Source: Rhodospirillaceae bacterium
GTDB lineage: Bacteria > Pseudomonadota > Alphaproteobacteria > Rhodospirillales > JABHCV01
Reading direction: 5' to 3'
DNA: 64,000 nucleotides
NCBI GenBank assembly: GCA_014382375.1
Contig: JACNJU010000090.1
Coordinates: 1 to 64,000, forward strand
The translations under genes were made by a program, and so were the position numbers. Shown in pieces: positions 1,950 to 64,000 of this stretch. Within the stretch, counting starts at the first letter, position 1. Every line of letters starts with the position of its first letter. Below the pieces are notes generated by a model. The model was not told the origin of the DNA and searched no databases. It saw only the letters and a list, made by a program, of their open reading frames with translations.

Positions 1950-1971
1950 CGAAGACGTTAGGGAAAATGAA

Positions 1972-2505
1972 AGAGGCGTCAGGTATACAGATCCTGGGAA
2001 ACCTGCATAACGCGCCGCCAAAGCAGCGCACCTGACGCCTCTAATTGGAGCCGGCCAGGCTCCGTGCATATGAAAAGCGGGCTTGTCGCCATCATCACCA
2101 TCGGTTCATGGACGAACCCTGGGCAGAGAACCGTCCTTGACCGTTGGTGGTGTGAACTGCCTTCCCCCAACAATCCTTCATTCCGGTTTGCACCAGCATG
2201 AAAGACCCTTAAGTTTCAACAATTCTCCGACACGCTATCGCCGTCCTCAGTGCTGCGGACTAAAAGCGGGTGCCCTAAAAATAAAGAAGCCGAAACTTCT
2301 CGATCCTCAGGTAACCCTGGAAGGCAAGGCCTTCCGGAACGACTGGTGTTCTGGCTGCATAACAGTCTGAACCTCCCTGTCCCCTAGCTCTCCCGTCGTT
2401 CCGGCCGAGACCGGAATTTGAGGTTTGCTCTTTCGCCAAGGCACGACCGGTCTCCACCAGGGAAGAGCAGCCTACCAGCGAAAGGTCCGCCTCACTTTAG
2501 TGAGG
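1972..2505 (-). ncRNA. Unassigned stretch dense in inverted repeats, possible structured RNA
   Basis: No credible gene lies between 1950 and 3011. This part holds many exact complementary arms: 1972-1984 with 2030-2042 (13 bp), 2047-2052 with 2058-2063, 2319-2324 with 2330-2335, 2334-2343 with 2395-2404 (10 bp), 2407-2414 with 2447-2454 (8 bp), 2426-2432 with 2463-2469, 2478-2483 with 2431-2436, and the hairpin 2490-2505 (6 bp, TTTA loop). Some pairs cross, as in pseudoknots. A hairpin at 2012-2029 has a C/A mismatch read on plus but a G/U wobble on minus, and a T-rich run follows the 13-bp stem on minus, so the minus strand is preferred. I could not match it to tmRNA, RNase P RNA, SRP RNA or 6S RNA. 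It could also be a decayed gene. Confidence 0.35.
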
Positions 2506-2756
2506 TCAGTTATTTCGCGGCGCCCTCAAAATGGATATCCAGGCCGAAGCGCGGAAAATCCTTCATAAGGACACTGTCTCCTGAACGCTCTACAGCGCGA
2601 ACACCGCAGATATTCAAGAGGCAGTAAATTTCTCAATAAAACGCCCATCAGGTCCCGAAGGACGATCAGAAAGCAATGTCAAAATTTACTGCATCGGCAC
2701 TTTTACATACGCGATACATGGTCTGAAAAATCGTTTATGGCTTCAATATAAATATC

Positions 2757-2935
2757 TGTGAAAAAACAACATTTCTGTGAATAAGATTCCAACATGCACA
2801 CATTTGACACACATGTTTTCCACAACTGTGTTCACATGTCTTGGTAGGTTTTCTTTGGAATCAACAGATTAGGGTTTCGCGGCTAAATCTTAATTTAGAA
2901 GAAACTAATGTAATAAGAGTGTTTATTTTATTTCC
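2757..2935. other. Candidate replication origin (DnaA-box cluster, IHF-type site, AT-rich tract)
   Basis: Three 9-mers fit the DnaA-box consensus TTWTNCACA: TGTGAAAAA at 2757-2765 and TGTGAATAA at 2776-2784 (both minus orientation), and TTTTCCACA at 2816-2824 (plus). AATCAACAGATTA at 2859-2871 fits the IHF consensus exactly. GANTC sites for CcrM-type methylation lie at 2785-2789 and 2858-2862. A very AT-rich tract at about 2885-2935 could be the unwinding element. Together these are the parts of a bacterial oriC, but the neighbouring genes are not the usual alphaproteobacterial oriC neighbours (hemE, maf, parA) and no dnaA gene is near. Regulation of sdhC by DnaA or IHF is the alternative. 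Confidence 0.4.
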
Positions 2936-2986: not shown

Positions 2987-3023
2987 GGTTGGGAAGCTTG
3001 TTTATAATCATTTGGACTTCTTC

Positions 3024-3443
3024 ATGACGTCAGAGAAATCAACCACCGGTGCTGCAAAGGCGCGGCCACTTTCGCCGCACCTTCAGGTTTATAACCCACA
3101 GATAACATCTGTCCTGTCGATCTTGCACAGGATGATGGGCGTCGCTCTGTCTTTTGGCAGTGTATTCCTGATTTACTGGTTGTCGTCAGCGGCTTATGGT
3201 CCTGATGCGTATGGTCGCGCACAAGATTTTTTTGGCTCTCCTATCGGCCAGCTCATCTTGTTGGGTCTGACTTTTTCGCTGTTTTATCACCTAGCCAACG
3301 GCATCCGTCATTTGATTTGGGACGTCGGTCTTGGTTTTGATATGCCGATGTTGCGGGCCACGGGAATCGTTGTTGTTTTCACGGCCTTTGGACTAACGGC
3401 GCTAACCTGGATCGTTGCCTATGTGCGCGCCGGGATCATTTAA
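3024..3443 (+). CDS. sdhC: Succinate dehydrogenase cytochrome b556 subunit
   Basis: A 139-residue integral membrane anchor with three predicted helices. The N-terminal RPLSPHLQVY and the following S..HR..G motif are typical of SdhC and contribute to the ubiquinone site. The helix with FYHLANGIRHLIWD carries the family haem/quinone histidines. It anchors SdhAB in the inner membrane and passes electrons to ubiquinone (complex II). I chose the ATG at 3024 with a weak GGA 7 bases upstream. An in-frame TTG at 3012 would add four residues. It is first in sdhCDAB, which follows with short gaps. Confidence 0.93.
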   Translation: MTSEKSTTGAAKARPLSPHLQVYNPQITSVLSILHRMMGVALSFGSVFLIYWLSSAAYGPDAYGRAQDFFGSPIGQLILLGLTFSLFYHLANGIRHLIWDVGLGFDMPMLRATGIVVVFTAFGLTALTWIVAYVRAGII

Positions 3444-52660: not shown

Positions 52661-52737
52661 GGGCCTGTAGCTCAGCTGGTTAGAGCCGGCCGCTCATAAC
52701 GGTCTGGTCGCAGGTTCGAGTCCTGCCGGGCCCACCA
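52661..52737 (+). tRNA. tRNA-Ile (CAT anticodon, lysidine type)
   Basis: A 77-base cloverleaf with encoded CCA. Acceptor GGGCCTG/CGGGCCC, D arm GCTC/GAGC, anticodon stem GGCCG/CGGTC with loop CTCATAA, variable TGGTC, and T arm GCAGG/CCTGC with TTCGAGT. The CAT anticodon with this body resembles tRNA-Ile2, whose C34 is modified to lysidine to read AUA; tRNA-Met is less likely. An integrase gene lies directly downstream on the opposite strand, so its 3' end is probably the attachment site of the adjoining element. Confidence 0.88.
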
Positions 52738-52776
52738 CCCCATTTTTAAGTCACTGATTTATTTGACTTAATCGCC

Positions 52777-52812
52777 AAAAGTCCCAAACTTTATATGGAG
52801 TTTGGGACTTTT
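52777..52812. terminator. Bidirectional terminator between tRNA and integrase
   Basis: A perfect 14-bp stem, AAAAGTCCCAAACT (52777-52790) with AGTTTGGGACTTTT (52799-52812), loop of 8, with T-runs on both strands. It can end the integrase transcript on minus and tRNA read-through on plus. Confidence 0.88.
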
Positions 52813-52816
52813 TGTT

Positions 52817-53845
52817 CTATTTTTGTCCATCAATACGCTCCCGAACCCGCTCTGCAAGTTGCTTCTGTTGGGCAGCTTTCGTGTATCGCTGGACCTCTGT
52901 AATGGTGTCATGTCCGGTGATGGACATGATCTCATGGATCGTGCAACCAATGTCGGCTAGGTGTGACGCTGCGGCTTTTCTCACTCCGTGGGCTGAACAT
53001 TGAGGTAGCCCAGCTTCATCGCATCTATCACGGAACCAGTTTCCAAATCCGTTGCCCGTGAATGGCTTTCCATGCTCCGTCACCAAGTAGGTCAAATCGC
53101 CTGTCTTGCTGGCATCAATGACACTTTGCAAATTGTCCAGAACTGGGATTTCGATGCGCTTGCCTGTTTTCTGCTGAATGACAGTCATCCAAGCGTCCTT
53201 GACGTGCTGCCTCCCCATTTTAACGATGTCTGAACGCCTCTGACCGGTGTACAGGAGAATGGCAAATGCCAGCCGTGCTTTTGTGCCGATGGGGTGCGTG
53301 GATTCGAACTGCGCTATTTCTTCAAGTGTCCAAGCATGGAATCCATCTTTGTTCTTTGTCTTTAATCTTTCGACTGCGATAACGGGATTGATATCGAGAA
53401 GATCATAGTTCACCGCGTACTTGAAGACCTGCCGCAACCCCTTGAGGAGGTTGTTGGCTGAACCTGGGCGATCCATCATGGCATCGCGGAACTTCCGAAT
53501 GTGGCGTGGGCGAAGTTGCGTGTATCGTTTATCACCATGCTCCTCGCAGAAATTATCCAGAATCCCTCGGCGGGTTTTTCTGTATCCATCGCCAATTTCT
53601 TTGAATGCGGAGGATTGGTAATACTGCTCGACGAGCCAGCGCATGGAATCTGGTTGGGCACGTTTGAAACTTGGTTTAACCTTCGTGACGCCATTCAGGG
53701 CGTTGTTATAGTCCTCCCAGAACTCAGGTGATCCCGATGGCCCTCGAAGAGGAATGCGTTTCCCCTGACCTTTCCGGAAATAGAACCGTTCCTTGCCGTA
53801 GCGGTCCTTCCAGTGATCAACGTGATTAATCTTCACTTTCATCAT
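52817..53845 (-). CDS. int: Tyrosine-type site-specific integrase
   Basis: A 342-residue phage/island integrase. An Arm-type or SAM-like N-terminal part precedes a catalytic domain with Arg in LLYTGQRRSDIVKMG, Lys in IQQKTGKRIE, HxxR in HGVRKAAASHLAD, His in SITGHDTITE and Tyr in VQRYTKAA, all present. It likely inserts the element into the tRNA-Ile 3' end. The open frame begins at 53905, but the tandem ATGs at 53845/53842, overlapping the end of the upstream excisionase-like gene, are better starts. Confidence 0.9.
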   Translation of the reverse strand: MMKVKINHVDHWKDRYGKERFYFRKGQGKRIPLRGPSGSPEFWEDYNNALNGVTKVKPSFKRAQPDSMRWLVEQYYQSSAFKEIGDGYRKTRRGILDNFCEEHGDKRYTQLRPRHIRKFRDAMMDRPGSANNLLKGLRQVFKYAVNYDLLDINPVIAVERLKTKNKDGFHAWTLEEIAQFESTHPIGTKARLAFAILLYTGQRRSDIVKMGRQHVKDAWMTVIQQKTGKRIEIPVLDNLQSVIDASKTGDLTYLVTEHGKPFTGNGFGNWFRDRCDEAGLPQCSAHGVRKAAASHLADIGCTIHEIMSITGHDTITEVQRYTKAAQQKQLAERVRERIDGQK

Positions 53846-54155
53846 CGTCCCAATCATTCTTGTCGTGGTTGGTTTGGGGACGTGGTAGGTCAGCGAAGAA
53901 CTCATCCAGTTCCTCTCTATCCCAGACTTTCTTTTTGCCGATCAATCGGGGGGATGGCATATCGCCATTTTTGACCATGCCGTCGAACATGCGCGGGGAA
54001 CACCCTATGTAGAATGCTGCATCCGTTCGGGGCAGACCGCGTGGGGCGAGGAGCCTTGCGGTTCGTAGCTGGATTACATTGTCTTGTGCTGGAGAGGACT
54101 GGTCGGAGATGTGGTCGGAAGTGACGATGGCAATATTGGAATTGCCTATGCGCAT
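53826..54155 (-). CDS. Excisionase-like / AlpA-type helix-turn-helix protein
   Basis: A 109-residue protein whose middle (LPRTDAAFYIGCSPRMFDGMV..GDMPSPRLIGKKKVWDREELDEFFADL) matches the MerR-like winged helix of AlpA/Xis proteins. The C-terminus is acidic. It overlaps the integrase start by about 20 bases, as expected for an excision/regulation gene paired with int. It may guide the direction of recombination. Confidence 0.75.
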   Translation of the reverse strand: MRIGNSNIAIVTSDHISDQSSPAQDNVIQLRTARLLAPRGLPRTDAAFYIGCSPRMFDGMVKNGDMPSPRLIGKKKVWDREELDEFFADLPRPQTNHDKNDWDDDESED

Positions 54156-54451
54156 GTATCTGACCTCGAGTGTTTGTTACACTGTATTGCGTACTCTTTC
54201 TGCGATGGCGTTATGTTTGGGACAATACCTCGACGTCGATAATCGTCAAAGGTTTCGAGGGTGATACCCCAGTGCGATGCCTGTTGCCATGTTGAACGAT
54301 GATGGCTTTGCAGCGGCAAAGGGTCGATATATTTGGTGGGGATGGTGGGGGCGGAGCAGTGGTCTCGTAATGTACGGGCGGAAACTATCCTACCGCCGTT
54401 GTTCATTGTTAAAAAATAGCACTGCCATGCACTCCCAATTAAGTGTTTCAT
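54146..54451 (-). CDS. Small open frame upstream of the excisionase-like gene
   Basis: A 101-residue frame overlapping the next gene by 10 bases. Its second half (WGITLETFDDYRRRGIVPNI) could be a helix-turn-helix remnant, and the first half is not protein-like. No strong ribosome site. It may be real, a remnant, or noise. Confidence 0.3.
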   Translation of the reverse strand: MKHLIGSAWQCYFLTMNNGGRIVSARTLRDHCSAPTIPTKYIDPLPLQSHHRSTWQQASHWGITLETFDDYRRRGIVPNITPSQKEYAIQCNKHSRSDTCA

Positions 54452-54538
54452 TATTTAACCATAGTATACTAAAAAGTGTAAAAAGTCAAGTTTTACATAT
54501 GAATAATATACAGGCGGTTTTTCCAGAATAAGGTAATA

Positions 54539-55294
54539 TTAGATATCAAATTTTATTTCTTTGTCTCGATCCTTAAGGTGAACAAACTCACGGAATTCTT
54601 CTTCCTTAATTACCCCTCTTATTTTTCTTACAGTTTCATCGGTCCACCGTTTGCCGTCTACGGTTAGGTAAGCTTCGCGATCCAATGCCCAAGCAATACG
54701 TTTGTTCGTGAGCTTAGGAGTTTCCTCCAAAATCTTCTCGATAACCCTATAGATAGGCTCAACCCCATGATAAAGGTGCTCGAAACCTTTTAGGCGACGG
54801 CGACCTATTTTGAATTTGGTTTTCCACTTCTCAATTGGGGAGGGTTTTTCTTTCTTTTTCTTTATGATTTTTTTTATGGGGCGACGTCGTGATTCAAATT
54901 TTTCCAATCTTGCCTGACGTTCAATTGCCTCCATGATTTTTCTATCAGGAGGAATTGCCACAAACTTCCAGTCCCTTATTTTCTTAAGTCTTTCGGCTTG
55001 TTCGAGGAAACTATTCAGCACTACGTTTGGTCTCCAGTTTCCAATATCTACGTACAAAAATGTTGCCTTATGTTTGTTGCAAAGTTCGGCTAGCTCCATC
55101 AGTACTTTGAATCCGGTTTTGCGACCTAATGAGAATTTTTGTTGCTCACCACCGTATTTAATAACTTCGTATTCATTCTCTTCTGCGTACTCCGCAATTC
55201 GATTGCGCTGCAACCTTGCATCAGGGGCCCATTTCCCTTTCCAGAGTCTGCCACGCATATAGCCTACGGCCTTGCCACTTCCACGCTCTGCCAT
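54539..55294 (-). CDS. Serine-recombinase-like protein without the usual catalytic motif
   Basis: A 251-residue, Lys-rich protein. The start GKAVGYMRGRLW and LQRNRIAEYAEENEYEVI follow the resolvase fold, as do FLYVDIGNW and the later KKIRDWKFVAIPPD. The C-terminal LTNKRIAWALDREAYLT...KRWTDETVRKIRG matches the recombinase DNA-binding domain. The catalytic YxRxS of serine recombinases reads YMRGR here, without the nucleophile serine, and the DRLaR-type motif is absent. It may bind DNA without cutting. The ATG at 55294 follows GAGAGG; the frame extends to 55369. The 55295-55540 region is AT-rich, with a possible promoter for the next gene. Confidence 0.6.
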   Translation of the reverse strand: MAERGSGKAVGYMRGRLWKGKWAPDARLQRNRIAEYAEENEYEVIKYGGEQQKFSLGRKTGFKVLMELAELCNKHKATFLYVDIGNWRPNVVLNSFLEQAERLKKIRDWKFVAIPPDRKIMEAIERQARLEKFESRRRPIKKIIKKKKEKPSPIEKWKTKFKIGRRRLKGFEHLYHGVEPIYRVIEKILEETPKLTNKRIAWALDREAYLTVDGKRWTDETVRKIRGVIKEEEFREFVHLKDRDKEIKFDI

Positions 55295-55540
55295 CGTTCC
55301 TCTCTTTAAAAAAACAGACAAATAAAAAGATTTATCCGATTTATTATCAATAATGTCAATATTTTGCAAAATGAGATAGTAAAAATAAGCCGGATTAAAC
55401 TGGTATTTTGTTGGTGTAAAACTGGCAGATTAAAAGGGCTGTAGGCAGTACTAAGTAGTTTCGAAAAACCGCATTATCGAAGTTGGGTACCTTTCTGGCG
55501 TCACGAGCAATCAAGCTCACCATTTGAAAGGAACCTCAAA

Positions 55541-56302
55541 ATGTCAAAATCTACCCTCACTAATACCCCCGTTGCAGCCAACGATTCCAACATTGCAGCA
55601 ACAAAGCCTTCCACCCTACTTGCCCAGTACCGGGCAGCTAAAGATGCCATCACCAACCTTAGCAGCATCGTTGGCAACTTGCTGAATGGGCAGGGTGGTG
55701 CCGGGCGCAGGGCACATCTTGCGGCTTACACTTTTGTTTCCGCTTGTATGGATAATCCAGCCGAAGCAGCCAAGTTGCCCGGCTGGGATGATGCGGCGGT
55801 GCAAGCTGGTACAAATCCCTGCTATCAACCGATTAAGATGCTGGCGGCAGATATGAACCCCGCAGTTCAATCTAAAATCAGCATGATGGCAAAAGTGTAC
55901 CAACATGCCCATAAAGCCAATATTGCCCCAGAACACTTTCTTGAACATCTGAAACGCAATCATGGGCTACGCCGCTGGTACGATGGCATCAATCTTGCCG
56001 AAAAGGCTGCGAATGGGAACACGCCAAAAGCTGGCACTAAAAAATCATCTACCGGCAGCACGGCACCTGCCAAGCCTAAAGTCCCACCACCGGCACCCAT
56101 CGATATTGTGCAACGGGTGGCTGATACCACCCAGATTGCCTACGCCATCATCGATAAAGAATTGTTGATCTGCGATAGCGATGCCAAAGGTGATCTGGAA
56201 TCTAACCCAGCATTTCTTGGAATTGTGCAGGTGGCAAACGATGATTGCATCACTTTCCTGAACGATAACGATCCACGCTTTGCCATGAAAGGAGCAGCAT
56301 AA
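55541..56302 (+). CDS. Unknown protein coupled to the DNA methylase
   Basis: A 253-residue protein I do not recognise. The first 25 residues are Thr/Ala/Asn-rich and probably disordered. A helical region follows (AQYRAAKDAITNLSSIVGNLL...), then a Thr/Ala/Pro-rich linker (about 160-190) and a small C-terminal domain with AYAIIDKELLICDSD. No signal peptide or membrane segment. AAAGGA precedes the ATG. Its stop overlaps the next start (TAATG), so the two products are made together. Confidence 0.65.
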   Translation: MSKSTLTNTPVAANDSNIAATKPSTLLAQYRAAKDAITNLSSIVGNLLNGQGGAGRRAHLAAYTFVSACMDNPAEAAKLPGWDDAAVQAGTNPCYQPIKMLAADMNPAVQSKISMMAKVYQHAHKANIAPEHFLEHLKRNHGLRRWYDGINLAEKAANGNTPKAGTKKSSTGSTAPAKPKVPPPAPIDIVQRVADTTQIAYAIIDKELLICDSDAKGDLESNPAFLGIVQVANDDCITFLNDNDPRFAMKGAA

Positions 56303-57225
56303 TGTATACGCCAGTACCAACTATCAAATCTGATTCATTAGCGATTGCGATGAATCCTGAACTTGGCTTCCAGCACGTAAGCCCCCTTCAATATATGGGC
56401 GGCAAGGCAAGGCATATTAGATACTTATCTACACTAATGCCTGCCAACATTGATTACCTGTTCGATGCCTTTATGGGCGGGTTAAGCACAACCATTTTTC
56501 TAATTAAAACGGGGCGGGTTAAGCCGGAACATTGTTATGCGGGCGATGTTTCAACCCACCTGCTAAATTTCTACAACGTGCTTAAAACGCAATATGAACC
56601 CCTAACCTTGAAATTGGCTAGTGATAGCATTTTCCATTCAAATGGTTCCCGTCACCTGTTCAACAAGGCAATCGATGTATTACGTGGATCAGATGATGAA
56701 TTTGAACTTGCACGCGCATTTTACATATTTAATAAAATTCGCATGCCCCATGTTTGGGATTTTGAATACACGGCATTTTCGCCATCAAAGGTCGGGCCGA
56801 ATGCCGGAATTACAATTCCGCAAATTTTAAGATTGCCATTGTTTGCTGCTCTGGTTCAGCGGGTTGCGTTCAGTGAATGGGATTACACCGATGCCCTAAA
56901 TCAGGCGGCGGCAATTGGCAAGAATGCTTTTGTATTCCTGGACCCACCATATGAACTGGTTGGCGATGAACTTTATGGAGTTGAATTTGATTTTGATGAA
57001 TTTGCGGAACAGTGCCACGCGGTGGCTGGAAAATGCACTTTCATGATTACCATCAATGATAGCCCTGAAAACCGCATGCGGTTTAGTGGCTATAATGTCA
57101 TCGCCCGCAGGCAGCATTATTCAGGTTCGCACAAGGCAAATGGTGATGAACTTGTAATATGTAACTACGAACTTAGCCACCAAGCCCATTACTTGAATCG
57201 GTTGGGGTATCAGGTTGCGGCATAA
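56302..57225 (+). CDS. Phage-type DNA adenine N6-methyltransferase (D12 class)
   Basis: A 307-residue methyltransferase. The SAM-binding YMGGKARHIRYL near residue 30 is the D12-class counterpart of motif I. DAFMGGLSTTIFLIKTG follows, and the catalytic motif IV is DPPYEL at about 213-218. It is related to Dam and phage adenine methylases. The target site cannot be read from the sequence, and no restriction endonuclease is adjacent, so protection or regulation is likelier than restriction-modification. A strong terminator follows. Confidence 0.85.
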   Translation: MYTPVPTIKSDSLAIAMNPELGFQHVSPLQYMGGKARHIRYLSTLMPANIDYLFDAFMGGLSTTIFLIKTGRVKPEHCYAGDVSTHLLNFYNVLKTQYEPLTLKLASDSIFHSNGSRHLFNKAIDVLRGSDDEFELARAFYIFNKIRMPHVWDFEYTAFSPSKVGPNAGITIPQILRLPLFAALVQRVAFSEWDYTDALNQAAAIGKNAFVFLDPPYELVGDELYGVEFDFDEFAEQCHAVAGKCTFMITINDSPENRMRFSGYNVIARRQHYSGSHKANGDELVICNYELSHQAHYLNRLGYQVAA

Positions 57226-57242
57226 TCGGTGGTTCGCCGACA

Positions 57243-57268
57243 GAAAGGGGGCAGCGTTGCCCCCTTTC
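57243..57268. terminator. Bidirectional terminator between methylase and Cys-rich gene
   Basis: An 11-bp stem GAAAGGGGGCA (57243-57253) with TGCCCCCTTTC (57258-57268), loop GCGT, with a T-rich stretch after it on plus. It serves both convergent genes. Confidence 0.88.
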
Positions 57269-57298
57269 TTTCTATTTTTGTCTCTGCCAATCTCCACA

Positions 57299-57730
57299 TT
57301 AATCATCGCATTCGCAACAATGTTCGATTTGCCCACATGTTGAGCACTTGGCGCAAATACATTCCTCTTTGTCGCAGTACACACACTGGCTGGATGTCAC
57401 TATCCTTAAGTTGCTGGGGACTGGTTTTGCCGCGACGTAGTACCCTACCCGATTTACAAAGCCCCTCGTGCCAGAAGACCAATATTGGTGGTCGTCGGCT
57501 TCATGAACTGTCCATATTCGGGAGTCATGTATTTTAGGATGGGAGGATCGCGCCTTCTCCAAGGAATCAAAGAATTGGCTCGTGTCGACCTCATAGGTTT
57601 TCCACGCATCGTCCTGAAGCATGTATTTTTCTTTGAGGTTATGGGGGGCTTTCCTGTCGGCTGCCCACTCAAAAATAGGGGCAAATGGGTCGTCTGTTTC
57701 GTCGTTGGTATTTACTTGTTGTTTATTCAT
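57299..57730 (-). CDS. Cys-rich hypothetical protein
   Basis: A 143-residue protein of unknown function. The last 29 residues contain nine cysteines (CVYC..ECICAKCSTC..HCCEC), probably binding zinc or another metal. The middle has SRIWTVHEADDHQYWSSG and no recognised domain. GAGGAGATTAG lies directly upstream of the ATG at 57730, and a promoter is visible (57763-57791). Confidence 0.7.
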   Translation of the reverse strand: MNKQQVNTNDETDDPFAPIFEWAADRKAPHNLKEKYMLQDDAWKTYEVDTSQFFDSLEKARSSHPKIHDSRIWTVHEADDHQYWSSGTRGFVNRVGYYVAAKPVPSNLRIVTSSQCVYCDKEECICAKCSTCGQIEHCCECDD

Positions 57731-57762
57731 CTAATCTCCTCACTGTTTATGATTATGTGCCT

Positions 57763-57791
57763 ATACTACCACACATGGAGTAAAAAAGCAA
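57763..57791 (-). promoter_or_regulatory. Sigma-70-type promoter of the Cys-rich gene
   Basis: On minus, TTGCTT (57786-57791) and TAGTAT (57763-57768) are separated by 17 bases, about 35 bases upstream of the ATG at 57730. Confidence 0.55.
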
Positions 57792-57831
57792 TTTAATTTA
57801 TAGCTTTACTCTATTTTCTTCAATAATAATA

Positions 57832-57860
57832 TTGACTTTTTGTCATTTTTACTTTATACT
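57832..57860 (+). promoter_or_regulatory. Strong sigma-70-type promoter of the replication-like operon
   Basis: TTGACT (57832-57837), 17-base spacer, TATACT (57855-57860). It faces away from the Cys-rich gene promoter. A short leader (to about 58020) with a terminator-like hairpin follows before the 70-residue gene. Confidence 0.65.
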
Positions 57861-57971
57861 ACTTGTATCATTAATAGAGGAGACGAAGAATAAATGGGCG
57901 CACGACGAACGAGGATAAAAACCGAATACATTTGCTTGTCCGAACTACGCCCAGTTCATTCAAGTCTCCCC

Positions 57972-58003
57972 GCCCAGCATCAATCCAGATGCTGGGCATT
58001 TTT
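57972..58003 (+). terminator. Leader terminator or attenuator hairpin
   Basis: GCCCAGCATC (57972-57981) pairs with GATGCTGGGC (57988-57997), loop AATCCA, followed by a T-run. It sits 17 bases before the ATG at 58021 and 72 bases after a leader ATG (57894), so it can stop most transcription from the upstream promoter. It is also translated in the frame that starts at 57894. Confidence 0.7.
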
Positions 58004-58020
58004 TATGGAGATTTATAAAA

Positions 58021-58232
58021 TGACGAGAGACTTAGAAATAACCGGGCATAAACGTGGATATCATCATCGTAACGATTCACTAGAAGTTACTGCTCATTAC
58101 GATTGCATTGATTCAGCCGAACGCTGGTGTCAGGAGAACGTTGGATATGGCTGGGCGAATAGAGAATATTGGTTTTCATTCGATCACCCACAGGATGCGC
58201 AGGCATTCAGAGAACTGTGGGGTGATGAATGA
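58021..58232 (+). CDS. Small hypothetical protein in the replication-like operon
   Basis: A 70-residue protein (DLEITGHKRGYHHRND ... WANREYWFSFDHPQDAQAFRE). The end, FDHPQDAQAF, is like small phage proteins. The ATG at 58021 has TGGAGA upstream. The frame also extends back to an ATG at 57894 with GAGGAG before it, which may encode a leader that reads through the attenuator hairpin. Its stop overlaps the next start (ATGA). Confidence 0.6.
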
Positions 58233-59413
58233 CAGACTTTCATACCCTGCTGGAGAGCATTACCGATCAGGATATGGAAAACCCTGTCATCGCGGACCTG
58301 GTTAGCCAGATGTACGATCCGTCAGAGTATTCTGACGTGGTCGAATTGGCAGCAGCAGAACAGGTCAATGACTGCCTGATGGCAATGGTGGAGGAGGAGA
58401 AGGCAAAGCAATTCTCCTCCAACTGCCAACCACCTGATTCCGGTCACATGTCAGGCATCGATACCGGTGCCGATTTGCCCGAATCCCCAGACTGCGACTT
58501 ATTTAATAGTGTTTCTAATATAGTAATACAGAAAGATAAAAAAGTCGCAGTCTGCGACTTTACTCCTGCTGACGCAGGGCAAAAAGGCAGGGGTCAACTG
58601 GACAGTAAAGAAGTCGCACTTTCGTGCGAAATGCTAGTCCAAGGCAATGAGACCCGGGACAGTAAAGAAGTCGCAGGTGCGGGGAATGGCAATCCAAACG
58701 GGGAGAGTAAACAAGTCGCATCTTCCCACAAAGTCCCCGTGGCATCGATCCGTGCCATCTTTGGCGACGTCGTGTGGATGCAGGTTCAGCTATGGGACAA
58801 CAGCGATAAATCCAATTGCGTCAAATACTACAGCAAGTACGACATCAAGAAATGCCGATCACCCGGCAAGTTCCAGAAAAACACCCTGTACCTGAACTTC
58901 ACCACCCGCCGCTCATATACGAAGAATTATAAAAAACTCCTCACAGAACGGCAGGAAAGGGATAAACCCGTCGCGCAGTTCTATGACAAGTGGCGGCGAC
59001 GTCACATCGAAGAGGAGAAGGTGACGACTGCCACACGGCCCCCGCTCATCGGCATTGCTATGAGCAATCCCAAGAAACTCTCATCCATCGAACATATGAA
59101 TGGAAAGTCCCAACTCAGGGTGACCACAAAAAACGGCAAGGAGGTCAGAAACGATTACTGGCCCGGCTACGTCGGTATCCTGTTCTGGGATGAATGCGAC
59201 ACCCCGCACATCTGGCTTGGCATCCATGGTCGTGGAGAAATGATATTCCCTCTGATTGATGGGAAGCACACGGCTGACTGGGAACCAAAAACCGACGTGC
59301 AACGACGATATGATCGCCACCCGTGCGACTTCATAGGTTACTGGCATCAGGATAAAGCTAAGGATGAATTGTTGCTGGAGAAGGTACGTCAGCTACAGGA
59401 ACGAAAGAAATGA
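58229..59413 (+). CDS. Unknown 394-residue protein with iteron-like DNA repeats, possible replication protein
   Basis: I do not recognise the family. Residues 1-60 are acidic and helical. About 60-175 is a low-complexity linker containing the repeated peptides KKVAVCDF, SKEVALSC, SKEVAGAG and SKQVASSH. About 175-394 looks folded (IRAIFGDVVWMQVQLWDNSDKS, YSKYDIKKC, GYVGILFWDECDTPHIWLGI). No ATPase or nuclease motif was seen. Repeats in the gene recall phage O-type initiators, which hold the origin in their own gene, but this is inference. It overlaps the upstream gene by 4 bases. Confidence 0.6.
   Translation: MTDFHTLLESITDQDMENPVIADLVSQMYDPSEYSDVVELAAAEQVNDCLMAMVEEEKAKQFSSNCQPPDSGHMSGIDTGADLPESPDCDLFNSVSNIVIQKDKKVAVCDFTPADAGQKGRGQLDSKEVALSCEMLVQGNETRDSKEVAGAGNGNPNGESKQVASSHKVPVASIRAIFGDVVWMQVQLWDNSDKSNCVKYYSKYDIKKCRSPGKFQKNTLYLNFTTRRSYTKNYKKLLTERQERDKPVAQFYDKWRRRHIEEEKVTTATRPPLIGIAMSNPKKLSSIEHMNGKSQLRVTTKNGKEVRNDYWPGYVGILFWDECDTPHIWLGIHGRGEMIFPLIDGKHTADWEPKTDVQRRYDRHPCDFIGYWHQDKAKDELLLEKVRQLQERKK
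58493..59331. repeat. Dispersed direct and inverted AAGTCGCA repeats inside the unknown gene
   Basis: The 8-mer AAGTCGCA occurs at 58542-58549, 58611-58618, 58668-58675 and 58713-58720 on plus, and as TGCGACTT at 58493-58500, 58553-58560 and 59324-59331. Copies 58611 and 58668 share a 19-base unit (GGACAGTAAAGAAGTCGCA), and the copy at 58713 differs from it at two bases. Copies 58542 and 58553 form a palindrome. The plus copies all read in the same frame; the inverted ones encode unrelated residues. Confidence 0.75.
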
Positions 59414-59602
59414 ATTGCCGGACAGATGCGCCAGGATGGCGAGTGTTCAATTTGTGCAGGGTTAGTAGCCAAAATACCTTGGTCGCGCATTCTGGGGCGA
59501 CTGGGCGGGACGTCGGCGGCGTTTGTCAGGGAACAGAGGAACTGTTTGCGGCTGCAAAGGGATAAAGGAAATTTTTAATGAGATAAACAAGGAGATAATA
59601 AT

Positions 59603-59785
59603 ATGAAGAAATATAAGATTACACGAATAATGCATGGAGGATATCTGACTGAAGAGATAATCGTTGAAGCAGATACCGAAGAACAAGCTGAGGAAATTTC
59701 TCTTACTGCGGATTTAGAAGACTGGACTGTAGTTAAAGAACTGGAGTTCAAGGATGCCGAACTAATAACTGAAAAAATTGGCTAA
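59603..59785 (+). CDS. Small hypothetical protein
   Basis: A 60-residue acidic protein (KYKITRIMHGGYLTEEIIVEADTEEQAEEISL...). The pattern beta-turn-beta-helix suggests a small alpha/beta domain. AAGGAGATAATAAT ends just before the ATG, a strong ribosome site. Function unknown. It probably belongs to the mobile element. Confidence 0.65.
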   Translation: MKKYKITRIMHGGYLTEEIIVEADTEEQAEEISLTADLEDWTVVKELEFKDAELITEKIG

Positions 59786-60083
59786 CATCTTCAGCCTTTT
59801 AGGATTCTTCGCAAAGCTTATAGAGGGGCGAGCAGCGTCATCCAGGGCCACCGCAAAGAAATTTTGGGATATATTGACCTGTGTCGATGGCGCAATTATC
59901 GGTTCTGGGTTTGAAAAGATATCGGAAGGTTAATTGACTGCCGTGCTACTCGGAAAGCATCCCGCTAAATGGCTATAAACTTCCGGTATTAGGGGTGAAC
60001 CGGAAATGTCAGGGCAATCGTCGGGTAACGACCACTTCGGCTTTTGACCCACAAGGGACATTCCGGACCCGCAATATCGGCGT
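59786..60083. other. Intergenic region at the possible right side of the element
   Basis: No gene is visible. It contains TTTTGACCCACAAGGGACA at 60041-60059, which resembles CTTGACCCAAAGAGGACT at about 63787 on the other side of the kinase. No copy of the tRNA-Ile 3' end was found here. Confidence 0.35.
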
Positions 60084-63000
60084 TTATCCATTCTCGATGA
60101 AAGTCTTAACAGCTTCAAACCGTTCATCCAAATCGACATGTAGGACTTCGATTCTTTCCTTATCATCTGCCTTGCCAGCTTTCTCCAATTCCTCGCATAA
60201 ATCAGCCAGCGCATTCGCTCCGATTGTTCGTGAAGACGATTTCAGCTTATGACCCAGTTCACCAATTTGTCTGACGGCGCCTTCTTCAAATGCTGCATGA
60301 ATTTCCGAAATCGTTTGGGAAGCTGGCGTGATAAACGTCTCAAGAAACTGCCGATGCAACGCCGGATCGTCACCGACAATCTGAGTTAGGATAGAAGGGT
60401 CAATGGGTGCATTTTTTACCGGGGGAGCTGGCTCCGCCTGAACGTCGACCTCAATCGCTGGCATGTTGATGCTGGGTTGTTCTGGTAGCCACTTGTTCAG
60501 AGTCTTCTCCAGAACATCGAGAGAAACAGGTTTGGTCAGATAACCGTCCATTCCCAATTTCATGCAACGGGCTTCCTCGTGTTTGAGAGCATTGGCCGTC
60601 AGGGCGATAATGGGGATGGGATTAAGGTCTTCTTCTTTTTCTTTCGTCCTAATTGCCGCCGTTAAATCGTAACCGTTCATTTCAGGCATGTGCAGGTCAG
60701 TTAGAAGCAGCCCGTAGTCACCGCCCCACATACGCTCATAAGCTTCCTGGCCATCGGAAGTCATTTCGGCACGGAGGCCAAGCAGGTCCAACTGACGAAG
60801 AATAACATCCTGATTGGTCTCATTGTCTTCCGCCACCAAGATCAACCGTCCTTGCTCAATCACTTCTTCGCGTGACAACAGGGTACTGCCCATGCCGGTT
60901 TTACGTTTGACCTTTTCGTAGTCTTCAAGGTTTCCCCGACCAGCGGCGACTGCCACAGCTTTCAGGAAACCACGACGGGTCAGGGCTTCACGGTCGATCT
61001 GATAGACGTTATCGCCGATTTTCCTTAATGACCGTCTGCTACCACGTTCTACGCTCAAATAGGATACCAGGATCGCATTGATTTTCTGGTTCGGGTAATG
61101 GCGCGTTAGTTCCTTGACTTTTTGAAACGCGGTCTCTCTCGCCGGTTCGCCGATAATTATAAAACAAAGGGGTTCGTTTGAGTCATGGCAGAAATTGTCG
61201 TGTGCCTCTTTCAGACCTCCTGCACGGAACACTTGAGCGCCGCTATGGCTAAGGTAGGTTTCAAAGTCGTCGCCAAGATTATCTTCAAAATCGACAACAG
61301 CACTGTTTAGCCCATTCACCAACGACGAGACGTCGTCAGCGGTTGGAGGCAGGACCGTGATAGGCAATTGCACCTTAAACGTTGATCCTTCTTCCGGAAC
61401 AGATTGCACGGTGATGTTTCCGCCCATCATCTCAACAAGGTTCCGGGATATGACCAAGCCCAGGCCGGTTCCGCCAAACCGCTTGGTAGTTGTGTCGTCA
61501 GCTTGTTCAAAAGATTGGAAAAGGCGGTTCTGGGCGTCTTCGTCCATTCCAATGCCGTTATCCGTTACGGATATTTTTACGACTGATTGATTGTTCTCCA
61601 ATGTCGTTAATTCGACCCGCACAGCGACGATGCCCCGATACTCCAATCCAGAAGAGAACTTGATCGCATTACTGATAAGGTTGGTCAGAACCTGACGGAT
61701 GCGCAGGGGGTCTCCATCAATACTGGAAGGAATTTCTGGGTCGAAGAACAACGTGAGCGCGACATCCTTATCCATGGCCAGTCTATCAAGAAGACCACAG
61801 ACCTGGTCGACTTCATCTTCCAGGCACATTGGTTCGGTGGAAATTTCCAGCTTCCCTGCTTCAATTTTAGAAAAGTCGAGAATGTCGTTGATAATCCCCA
61901 AAAGGGAGTGTCCGGATTTGCCTATTGTTTCTACGAGACGGTGATCGTCATCGCTCAAATCGCTATGGGACAACACTTCAAGCATTCCAAGGACACCGTT
62001 CATAGGTGTTCTGATCTCGTGGCTCATGTTGGCGAGGAAGGTAGATTTGGCTTTGTTGGCGGATTCTGCCACTTGCGCTCTACGATCCGACTCTTCGGCT
62101 TCAATATGTGTCGTAATGTCCTGAACTGTGCCATCAGAACGAACGACTTCACCTTCCTCGTTGCGAAGATGTTTGCACTTCTCATGCACCCAACTGACTT
62201 CCCCGTTATCCTTACGTATGATCCGATGGCGAATGTCATAAGGGAACTTGCCCTCTAAAGCTCCCTGATATTGCTCGTTGACATAATCCAGGTCATCAGG
62301 GTGAATTCTTTCCAAAAATGCTTCGTAAGTAGCTTCAAAGCCTTGTGGGTCGATGCCGAAAATCAAATAAATCTGTTCTGACCAGGTTAGGGAGTTGTTT
62401 ATTATGTCCAGGCTCCAACTCCCCACATTGGCAAGGCTCTGCGCTTGTTTTAACGCAACACCATGTAGAAGCAGTTCTTCATTTGCTTCTAGCAATCCAC
62501 TTTCCGCCGCAATGCTTGCGTCCTGGACACGACCTAGGATCACATAAAAGGCCACCAATAAAATGACGCCGATTCCGATGGCTAAGGCAGCCGCCAGCAA
62601 AATTGACTGATAAAACGCACTCTCTGACTCTGTTATATCACTGACAAAAACAAAGTCACCGATCTCACCCTTACCGATGTCCATCAGCGGGGTTAGGTCA
62701 ATTTCATATACCTTCTCCCCAATGTCCAGGTGGTGTTCCAATTCAACATGCCCGGCATAACTTGAGTGAGTTTTCAACACGTCACCTACATCGGAACGAA
62801 TTTCTTGAGAAAGATTACCAATGAATACGAAGTCTTTGAACGAATCCCAATTTGTAGGAGATTTGGAAAACTTCTGTCCGACTTCCCAATCATTTTTGTT
62901 GAGGAACTTCTTATAAATCAACGTGTAGACTTGAAGTGAAAATTCCTCGGAAATTGAGTGAAGGATATGATCTATCTCTTCGCCCAACTCGATGTAACCA

Positions 63001-63524
63001 ATCAAATGGCCCTTCACGACCCAGGGAACAACGGTACGCAAGGTTAAGGTTCCGAACTTCCCTAATTCAACGCCGCGGGTCGACTTTCCAGTGTTTTCAG
63101 CCGTGACCAGCGTGTGGCGATTGATCAGGTCGCCAAGACGATCTTTTTGGTGGACCCTCAGAAACGTCTTACGGTCAGGGGTGAAAAAGTAAAAATGGGT
63201 AATGTGATGGTTGGCTTTGTAGCGATTGAATATGGGGACGCTCAGCTCGTATAGCGTCTCTCTGTCCCTGGCTTCAAAGGCAGTACGAATATTTTCTACA
63301 TCAGTAATGCTGGCAATGACGGAACGCATCCAGAGAGCATCATTTTCGATGCTCGACTCGTACTCATAATTTGCTTCTTCAATGGTCTCTCGAAGAGTTT
63401 TTTCCTGGGTCTGTTGTTCTCGGATGAAACTGTTGGTGAGAAACAGACCAGTTATAACAGTTATCGCTACCAACAAAGGAACGAGAATGGTACGCCGAAT
63501 ATGATGATTTTGTGATGGATTCAT
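60084..63524 (-). CDS. Hybrid sensor histidine kinase with receiver and HPt domains
   Basis: A 1146-residue membrane kinase of BarA/EvgS-like layout. Transmembrane helices lie at about 11-31 and 308-332, with a periplasmic double-Cache-like sensor between (HFYFFTPDRKTFLRVH). A PAS domain spans about 362-475. HisKA has H502 (MSHEIRTPMNG), followed by HATPase with NLISNAIKF, DNGIGMD and GGTGLGL. A receiver-like stretch without the phospho-aspartate precedes a full receiver with D943 (LTDLHMPEMNG). The HPt domain has H1092 (GHKLKSSSRTIG). It probably signals to an unlinked response regulator. No regulator gene is adjacent. Whether it belongs to the element or the chromosome is unclear. Confidence 0.9.
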   Translation of the reverse strand: MNPSQNHHIRRTILVPLLVAITVITGLFLTNSFIREQQTQEKTLRETIEEANYEYESSIENDALWMRSVIASITDVENIRTAFEARDRETLYELSVPIFNRYKANHHITHFYFFTPDRKTFLRVHQKDRLGDLINRHTLVTAENTGKSTRGVELGKFGTLTLRTVVPWVVKGHLIGYIELGEEIDHILHSISEEFSLQVYTLIYKKFLNKNDWEVGQKFSKSPTNWDSFKDFVFIGNLSQEIRSDVGDVLKTHSSYAGHVELEHHLDIGEKVYEIDLTPLMDIGKGEIGDFVFVSDITESESAFYQSILLAAALAIGIGVILLVAFYVILGRVQDASIAAESGLLEANEELLLHGVALKQAQSLANVGSWSLDIINNSLTWSEQIYLIFGIDPQGFEATYEAFLERIHPDDLDYVNEQYQGALEGKFPYDIRHRIIRKDNGEVSWVHEKCKHLRNEEGEVVRSDGTVQDITTHIEAEESDRRAQVAESANKAKSTFLANMSHEIRTPMNGVLGMLEVLSHSDLSDDDHRLVETIGKSGHSLLGIINDILDFSKIEAGKLEISTEPMCLEDEVDQVCGLLDRLAMDKDVALTLFFDPEIPSSIDGDPLRIRQVLTNLISNAIKFSSGLEYRGIVAVRVELTTLENNQSVVKISVTDNGIGMDEDAQNRLFQSFEQADDTTTKRFGGTGLGLVISRNLVEMMGGNITVQSVPEEGSTFKVQLPITVLPPTADDVSSLVNGLNSAVVDFEDNLGDDFETYLSHSGAQVFRAGGLKEAHDNFCHDSNEPLCFIIIGEPARETAFQKVKELTRHYPNQKINAILVSYLSVERGSRRSLRKIGDNVYQIDREALTRRGFLKAVAVAAGRGNLEDYEKVKRKTGMGSTLLSREEVIEQGRLILVAEDNETNQDVILRQLDLLGLRAEMTSDGQEAYERMWGGDYGLLLTDLHMPEMNGYDLTAAIRTKEKEEDLNPIPIIALTANALKHEEARCMKLGMDGYLTKPVSLDVLEKTLNKWLPEQPSINMPAIEVDVQAEPAPPVKNAPIDPSILTQIVGDDPALHRQFLETFITPASQTISEIHAAFEEGAVRQIGELGHKLKSSSRTIGANALADLCEELEKAGKADDKERIEVLHVDLDERFEAVKTFIENG

Positions 63525-64000
63525 CGGTTCACTTCGGGCTGAGACTGTACAGAAGAAAACATAATGACCAACGTTCAGCTTGCTCAGCTTCGTTTCTAAA
63601 GGTCTCGTTCTTTATTGTCGCCAATGTCAGGTTGTGGCTATAACCGGCGGTGACAGCCACCTCCCAATTCATGACCGTAGCTGAAGGTCGAGCGGACATC
63701 AAGTGCACGAAATCCGTTTCGCCAGATTTCACTTCCGGTTATAGGGGCTGCAGCAGTCGTGAAAAACGGCTGGTCCTAAATGGCGGTCTTGACCCAAAGA
63801 GGACTTTGGGTAGCGAAAATCACATTCCTCCCTTAGGTCTTTCGATTCTTAAAAGGTGTGAGGCCACAAGATCTCAAGAGAGAGGTTTTTTCACATAATT
63901 ACAGCTTACGATCTCGGTCGTTTCTTTTCCGGATCGTAAAAGGAAAGGGGGACGACCGTCGCCGGTAGGCGTTTTTGGTGTCCGTCCAGTTTTCCCACCT
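63525..64000. other. Right-end region without a confident gene
   Basis: Short frames are present but none has protein-like sequence with a ribosome site. The last 110 bases could hold the end of a minus-strand gene that continues beyond the window. A TTGACCCAAA-GGACT motif sits at about 63788, resembling one before the kinase gene. Confidence 0.3.

Follow-up and report, generated by a model that had tools for sequence, protein, structure and literature searches.

A conserved DnaA-box array beside sdhC as the probable regulatory region of a predicted large structured RNA in Rhodospirillales

Why does a tight cluster of DnaA boxes lie upstream of sdhC in a Rhodospirillaceae bacterium, and what does it serve? 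The window, that is, the whole 64,000-nucleotide stretch analysed here (contig JACNJU010000090.1 of assembly GCA_014382375.1), contains three exact TTWTNCACA boxes within 68 bases, at 2757-2765 and 2776-2784 on the minus strand and at 2816-2824 on the plus strand. A preliminary description of this DNA listed them with an IHF consensus, two GANTC sites and an AT-rich tract, and read the locus as either the chromosomal origin, oriC, or a DnaA-controlled promoter. All of these motifs are present as it placed them, and its estimate that the box consensus arises by chance once in 33,000 per position and strand is close to the count in the bacterium's own genome, 176 exact boxes in 3.3 Mb or about one per 37,500 per position and strand. 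Because the genome has 176 such boxes, three of them in 68 bases are improbable by chance. The window as a whole holds six exact boxes, against 4.5 expected, and only the clustering is unusual. Apart from this locus, the GC content in the region 52661-64000 falls from about 0.53-0.55 to 0.45-0.50 directly after a tRNA gene (52661-52734), a drop that resembles a genomic island next to a tRNA.

Comparison with related sequences indicates that the cluster is real and conserved. What is conserved is an array of five boxes, one reversed and then four in an 11-12 bp register, often with an IHF site behind them (Table 1). In an alignment of 19 relatives, TTTTCTGTGNATAA is followed by boxes ending in CACA, whose ends lie 26, 37, 48 and 60 bases from where box 1 begins. 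The box 1 motif TTATNCACAGAAAA is conserved in 49 related loci; the CACA of box 2 (alignment columns 23-26) is found in at least 17 of the 19 loci and that of box 3 (columns 34-37) in all 19, and the T.CACA of box 5 is conserved at columns 55-60. Allowing one mismatch at most, an IHF site was present in 19 of 44 non-redundant loci, where 0.9 would be expected. Conservation confirms that part of the motif set is functional. Two of the three exact boxes (2776 and 2816) belong to the five-box array and are conserved, as is the IHF site; the box at 2757, the GANTC sites and the AT-rich tract are not part of the conserved set. The box at 2757 was rejected as an array member since it is absent from the nearest relative, a same-genus sequence (L002), and the AT-rich tract is not conserved in the alignment of 19 relatives. 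Control by CcrM was likewise rejected, because 21 GANTC sites were seen where chance alone predicts 20.6.

Table 1. Features of the array, the predicted RNA gene and the neighbouring gene, in window positions.
Feature	Positions	Strand	Remarks
Structured non-coding RNA (predicted), about 745 nt	1965..2710	-	predicted 5' end ~2710, 3' end ~1965
Conserved 3' domain, covariance model R1	1965..2141	-	158.6 bits
Terminal three-way junction, 12-13 bp closing stem	1972..2042	-	followed by a U-rich stretch, likely terminator
Hairpin GGAGCCUGGCCGGCUCC	2047..2063	-	nearly invariant
3' arm of helix P1 (CTTTTCATATGCAC)	2064..2077	-	
5' arm of long-range helix P1	2701..2713	-	at the predicted RNA start
Predicted -10 (GACCAT)	2718..2723	-	in relatives often CATCAT-like
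Predicted -35 of the RNA promoter (TTGAAG)	2741..2746	-	TTG at identical offset from box 1 in relatives
Extra exact DnaA box	2757..2765	-	absent from nearest relative
DnaA box 1 (TTATTCACA)	2776..2784	-	orientation opposite to boxes 2-5; directly upstream of the predicted RNA promoter
GANTC sites	2785-2789 and 2858-2862		
DnaA box 2, weak	2794..2802	+	conserved CACA core
DnaA box 3, weak	2805..2813	+	CACA invariant
DnaA box 4 (TTTTCCACA)	2816..2824	+	exact box; in relatives mostly TTATCCACA
DnaA box 5, weak (GTGTTCACA)	2828..2836	+	T.CACA conserved
IHF-type site, exact consensus (AATCAACAGATTA)	2859..2871	+	spacing from box 1 conserved, 80-83 bp
AT-rich tract	about 2885 to 2935		
sdhC	3024..3443	+	commonly adjoins the array on its other side; not fixed in the array-RNA unit

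The surroundings of the array had been taken for a 1-kb gene-free region, a description that holds for protein genes; a predicted gene for a structured RNA, however, fills most of 1965-2710. Between 2620 and 1960 the folding z was -9.6 for the minus strand, compared with -2.5 for the opposite strand, and the RNA strand had the lower folding z in 19 of 20 relatives. When the 3' domain was aligned in 17 relatives, 92.6% of cells paired, as against 38-47% in slid controls, and two-sided changes were seen at 22 of the 43 consensus pairs, a result reached in none of 500 shuffles. The sequences showed no coding potential: the three same-genus sequences differ by 33 indels and, because most of these are of 1-2 bases, the RNA region is probably not coding. 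The longest open reading frame inside it has 95 amino acids and a TTG start. The interior of the RNA is poorly conserved, with box 1 to the 3' end spanning 435-1056 nt among relatives, and for this reason the function of the RNA is unreadable from sequence. Two conserved loops of the 3' domain, CCUGG and CCCAGG, complement each other and may meet in a kissing or pseudoknot contact, on which covariation is uninformative because both are nearly invariant.

The predicted 5' end of the RNA pairs with a segment beside the GGAGCC hairpin, a nearly invariant element of the 3' domain. This long-range helix, P1, had a mean of 11.0 of 13 pairs over 30 loci (related sequences not corrected for), compared with 10.1 pairs when partners were swapped among species (0 of 300 swaps as high) and 8.4 pairs when sequences were shuffled. 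Covariation thus lay above that of slid and shuffled controls for both the 3' domain and helix P1. Since the 5' end pairs and covaries with the 3' domain, the computed structure suggests that a single transcript most likely runs from the start near the array to the distant 3' domain.

The predicted promoter of this RNA ties it to the array. In 33 of 44 loci the TTG of the -35 element keeps exactly the same offset from box 1. Reading along the RNA strand, it is followed by a -10-like element, which is weak and variable, and then by a 5' end with a conserved GYACGCGAAAGCGUC-like sequence. Counted from the predicted RNA start, the array occupies roughly -66 to -134, with the IHF site behind it, and the boxes hold a conserved position relative to the promoter, itself a predicted and not a mapped one. 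Most RNA-bearing loci match the array consensus at 26-37 of 37 positions, while the best score in five element-free stretches was 20-22 of 37 per 20 kb; degenerate arrays were seen beside some of the weaker class-level RNA matches and also in two relatives (G626 and G627).

An independent scan of 84,980 genomes, in which only the pattern of boxes 1 and 4 was used, returned 46 loci. Alphaproteobacterial or unplaced Proteobacteria records accounted for 22 of them, and the RNA was found on the expected side in 18 of these 22, the remaining four having too little DNA on the RNA side. The other scan loci, from other groups, gave no convincing RNA match. The box1-N31-box4 pattern also occurs without this RNA in Comamonadaceae (Acidovorax, Simplicispira, Giesbergeria, Diaphorobacter and Paracidovorax; loci L100, L101, L104, L114, L129, L134, L140 and L145), in several cases near an rdgC-like gene named by inspection, and these loci are possibly a separate conserved DnaA element. 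Within the order, the RNA model itself matched 37 of 188 genomes, with essentially one copy in each; this prevalence rests on a model built from 17 training sequences, and most carriers are metagenome-assembled genomes. In the class it matched 22 of 289 genomes, the own genome among them, mostly more weakly, and among 299 genomes drawn from the phylum it matched the own genome only. The carriers are Rhodospirillales and scattered related families.

No Rfam family reached its gathering score in the region of the window. RNase P RNA and tmRNA were rejected as identities because an RNase P RNA and an alpha-tmRNA are encoded elsewhere in the same genome, and antisense action of the conserved UCCCAG loop on dnaA leaders was rejected because, among 11 dnaA upstream regions, its complement, CTGGGA, was found in a single one. 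The small three-way-junction fold in the last ~60 nt resembles the Rfam DUF3800-VI RNA (RF02915), but that family covers 52 nt only and the window scores 25.1 against it, below the gathering score of 35. The terminal three-way junction of one relative (L018, 1536-1598) scores 37.3 with the same gathering score of 35. Rfam lists DUF3800-VI as cis-regulatory.

Two known systems in alphaproteobacteria resemble the locus in part. DnaA acts as a transcription regulator in Caulobacter (PMC3193534), and in DnaA-regulated promoters, as at the present locus, DnaA boxes precede the promoter at a fixed distance. The predicted output here, however, is a large structured RNA in place of a protein gene, and its array is longer, often with a conserved IHF site. 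CcnA of Caulobacter crescentus is likewise an alphaproteobacterial non-coding RNA beside DnaA boxes (PMC8959179). It is 182 nt long, lies inside the origin and is presumably activated by CtrA (PMC8959179), whereas the RNA described here is about 400-1000 nt long and lies hundreds of kb from the origin. A literature search, with most subscription journals outside its coverage, did not turn up this RNA or any DnaA array reported at sdhC; both components are known separately, but we met no account of a large structured RNA placed in fixed geometry with a DnaA-IHF array.

From the conserved array and its computed promoter geometry, we think it probable that a large non-coding RNA gene lies on the minus strand with this site as its regulatory region, and that DnaA, with IHF, regulates transcription of that gene. 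DnaA would bind the five-box array, with IHF at the site behind it, and the bound DnaA would set transcription from the promoter at a fixed distance from box 1. Once expressed, the RNA would follow DnaA state in its level, and hence the replication cycle. It would close on itself, its 5' end joined to the 3' domain through P1 around a variable interior, and would end in the hairpin and the three-way-junction terminator. The array lies upstream of the -35 element, and its position therefore fits activation, which we infer in preference to repression, itself also possible.

The main rival, which we regard as unlikely, is a DnaA-control locus of the datA or DARS kind, in which the array with IHF would hold DnaA or switch its nucleotide state and the RNA would be secondary or would clear the site by transcription. 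Such a locus with an incidental adjoining RNA would show much of the same conservation, including several boxes in one array and a conserved spacing to an IHF site. Its position would suit as well, since the element is origin-proximal, 331-584 kb from hemE in five genomes, which is reminiscent of datA. Upstream of dnaA there are no exact consensus boxes in 11 genomes, and few upstream of hemE, which also counts for this rival. We know of no RNA linked to DARS in E. coli. The geometry speaks against this reading, for it matches neither DARS nor datA. Like E. coli DARS1 and DARS2, the array has one box opposed to the others and is intergenic and away from oriC, and like DARS2 it has IHF in its neighbourhood (PMC4245941, PMC5742627); boxes I and II of the E. 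coli DARS cores, however, are convergent with a 5-bp gap, whereas here the boxes are divergent with a 9-bp gap. E. coli datA is similar in being a DnaA-box cluster with an IHF site that lies beside RNA genes (tRNAs) and is not oriC (PMC10950094, PMC5742627), but box order, polarity and IHF spacing differ, and the layout of minimal datA is not found here. A datA- or DARS-like function also leaves the fixed promoter position and the co-conserved RNA 5' end unexplained.

Another reading, in which the array would serve sdhCDAB as a DnaA-controlled promoter region and couple respiration to the cell cycle, is very unlikely. sdhC was found beside the RNA locus in 18 of 20 loci of the order, and a TATAAT-like -10 lies just before it (3003-3008), both of which would suit such a role. 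The distance to sdhC, however, varies from 213 to 446 bp, whereas that to the RNA promoter is fixed, and the array-RNA unit persists beside other genes, namely htpG and an EF-G-like gene in one locus (L162) and LysE-like and LicD-like genes in two others (L102 and L163; all names from inspection of translations). Because the unit persists beside these other neighbours, the array appears to go with the RNA rather than with sdhC. The proposal of a DnaA-controlled promoter is thus supported for the predicted minus-strand RNA promoter, at its fixed distance, and not for sdhC.

The locus is almost certainly not the chromosomal oriC, a role that its DnaA boxes, IHF site and AT-rich tract had suggested, since the GC skew, sampled in 20-kb blocks, flips at or near hemE, 396-584 kb from the element, in four relatives with chromosome-scale contigs. 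The preliminary description had itself set the skew and hemE as the test of this claim, and the outcome is against it. In G049, a single contig of 3.89 Mb, the skew is negative before about 420 kb and positive within 430-450 kb, with hemE at 433 kb and parS at 443-445 kb; the element lies at 3,742 kb, which on a circular contig would put it ~584 kb from hemE. The flip lies within 1,428-1,448 kb in G345 (hemE at 1,438 kb, element at 1,042 kb), between about 1.4 and 1.6 Mb in G626 (hemE at 1,535 kb, RNA at 2,064 kb), and between 3.7 Mb and the contig end in G627 (hemE at 3,821 kb, RNA at 3,334 kb). The element and hemE are 331 kb apart on one contig in G014, along which the sampled skew is too irregular to locate the flip, and in the same-genus genome G001 the element is flanked by positive skew on either side. 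Contig C62 of the own genome carries hemE, parS and the minimum of the cumulative skew, and the window is on C56. The computations thus place the element neither at the GC-skew minimum nor near hemE and parS. The likely oriC of the own genome, upstream of hemE (C62; L062, about 1000-1490), has three one-mismatch boxes and no exact TTWTNCACA, and the boxes upstream of hemE vary among relatives. DnaA-box clusters with IHF sites and AT-rich DNA can, as a caution, resemble an origin without being one.

A wider proposal, which we put forward tentatively and as somewhat less secure than the promoter reading, is that Rhodospirillales and scattered related alphaproteobacteria may carry a new family of large structured RNAs that acts as a replication-coupled riboregulator under the direct control of a DnaA-IHF array, reporting DnaA status to further processes of the cell from a conserved origin-proximal position and perhaps serving in cell-cycle or metabolic control. 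If confirmed, this would mean that the replication initiator of alphaproteobacteria has an RNA output, and the locus would offer a defined place to study how the state of replication is passed on to other processes.
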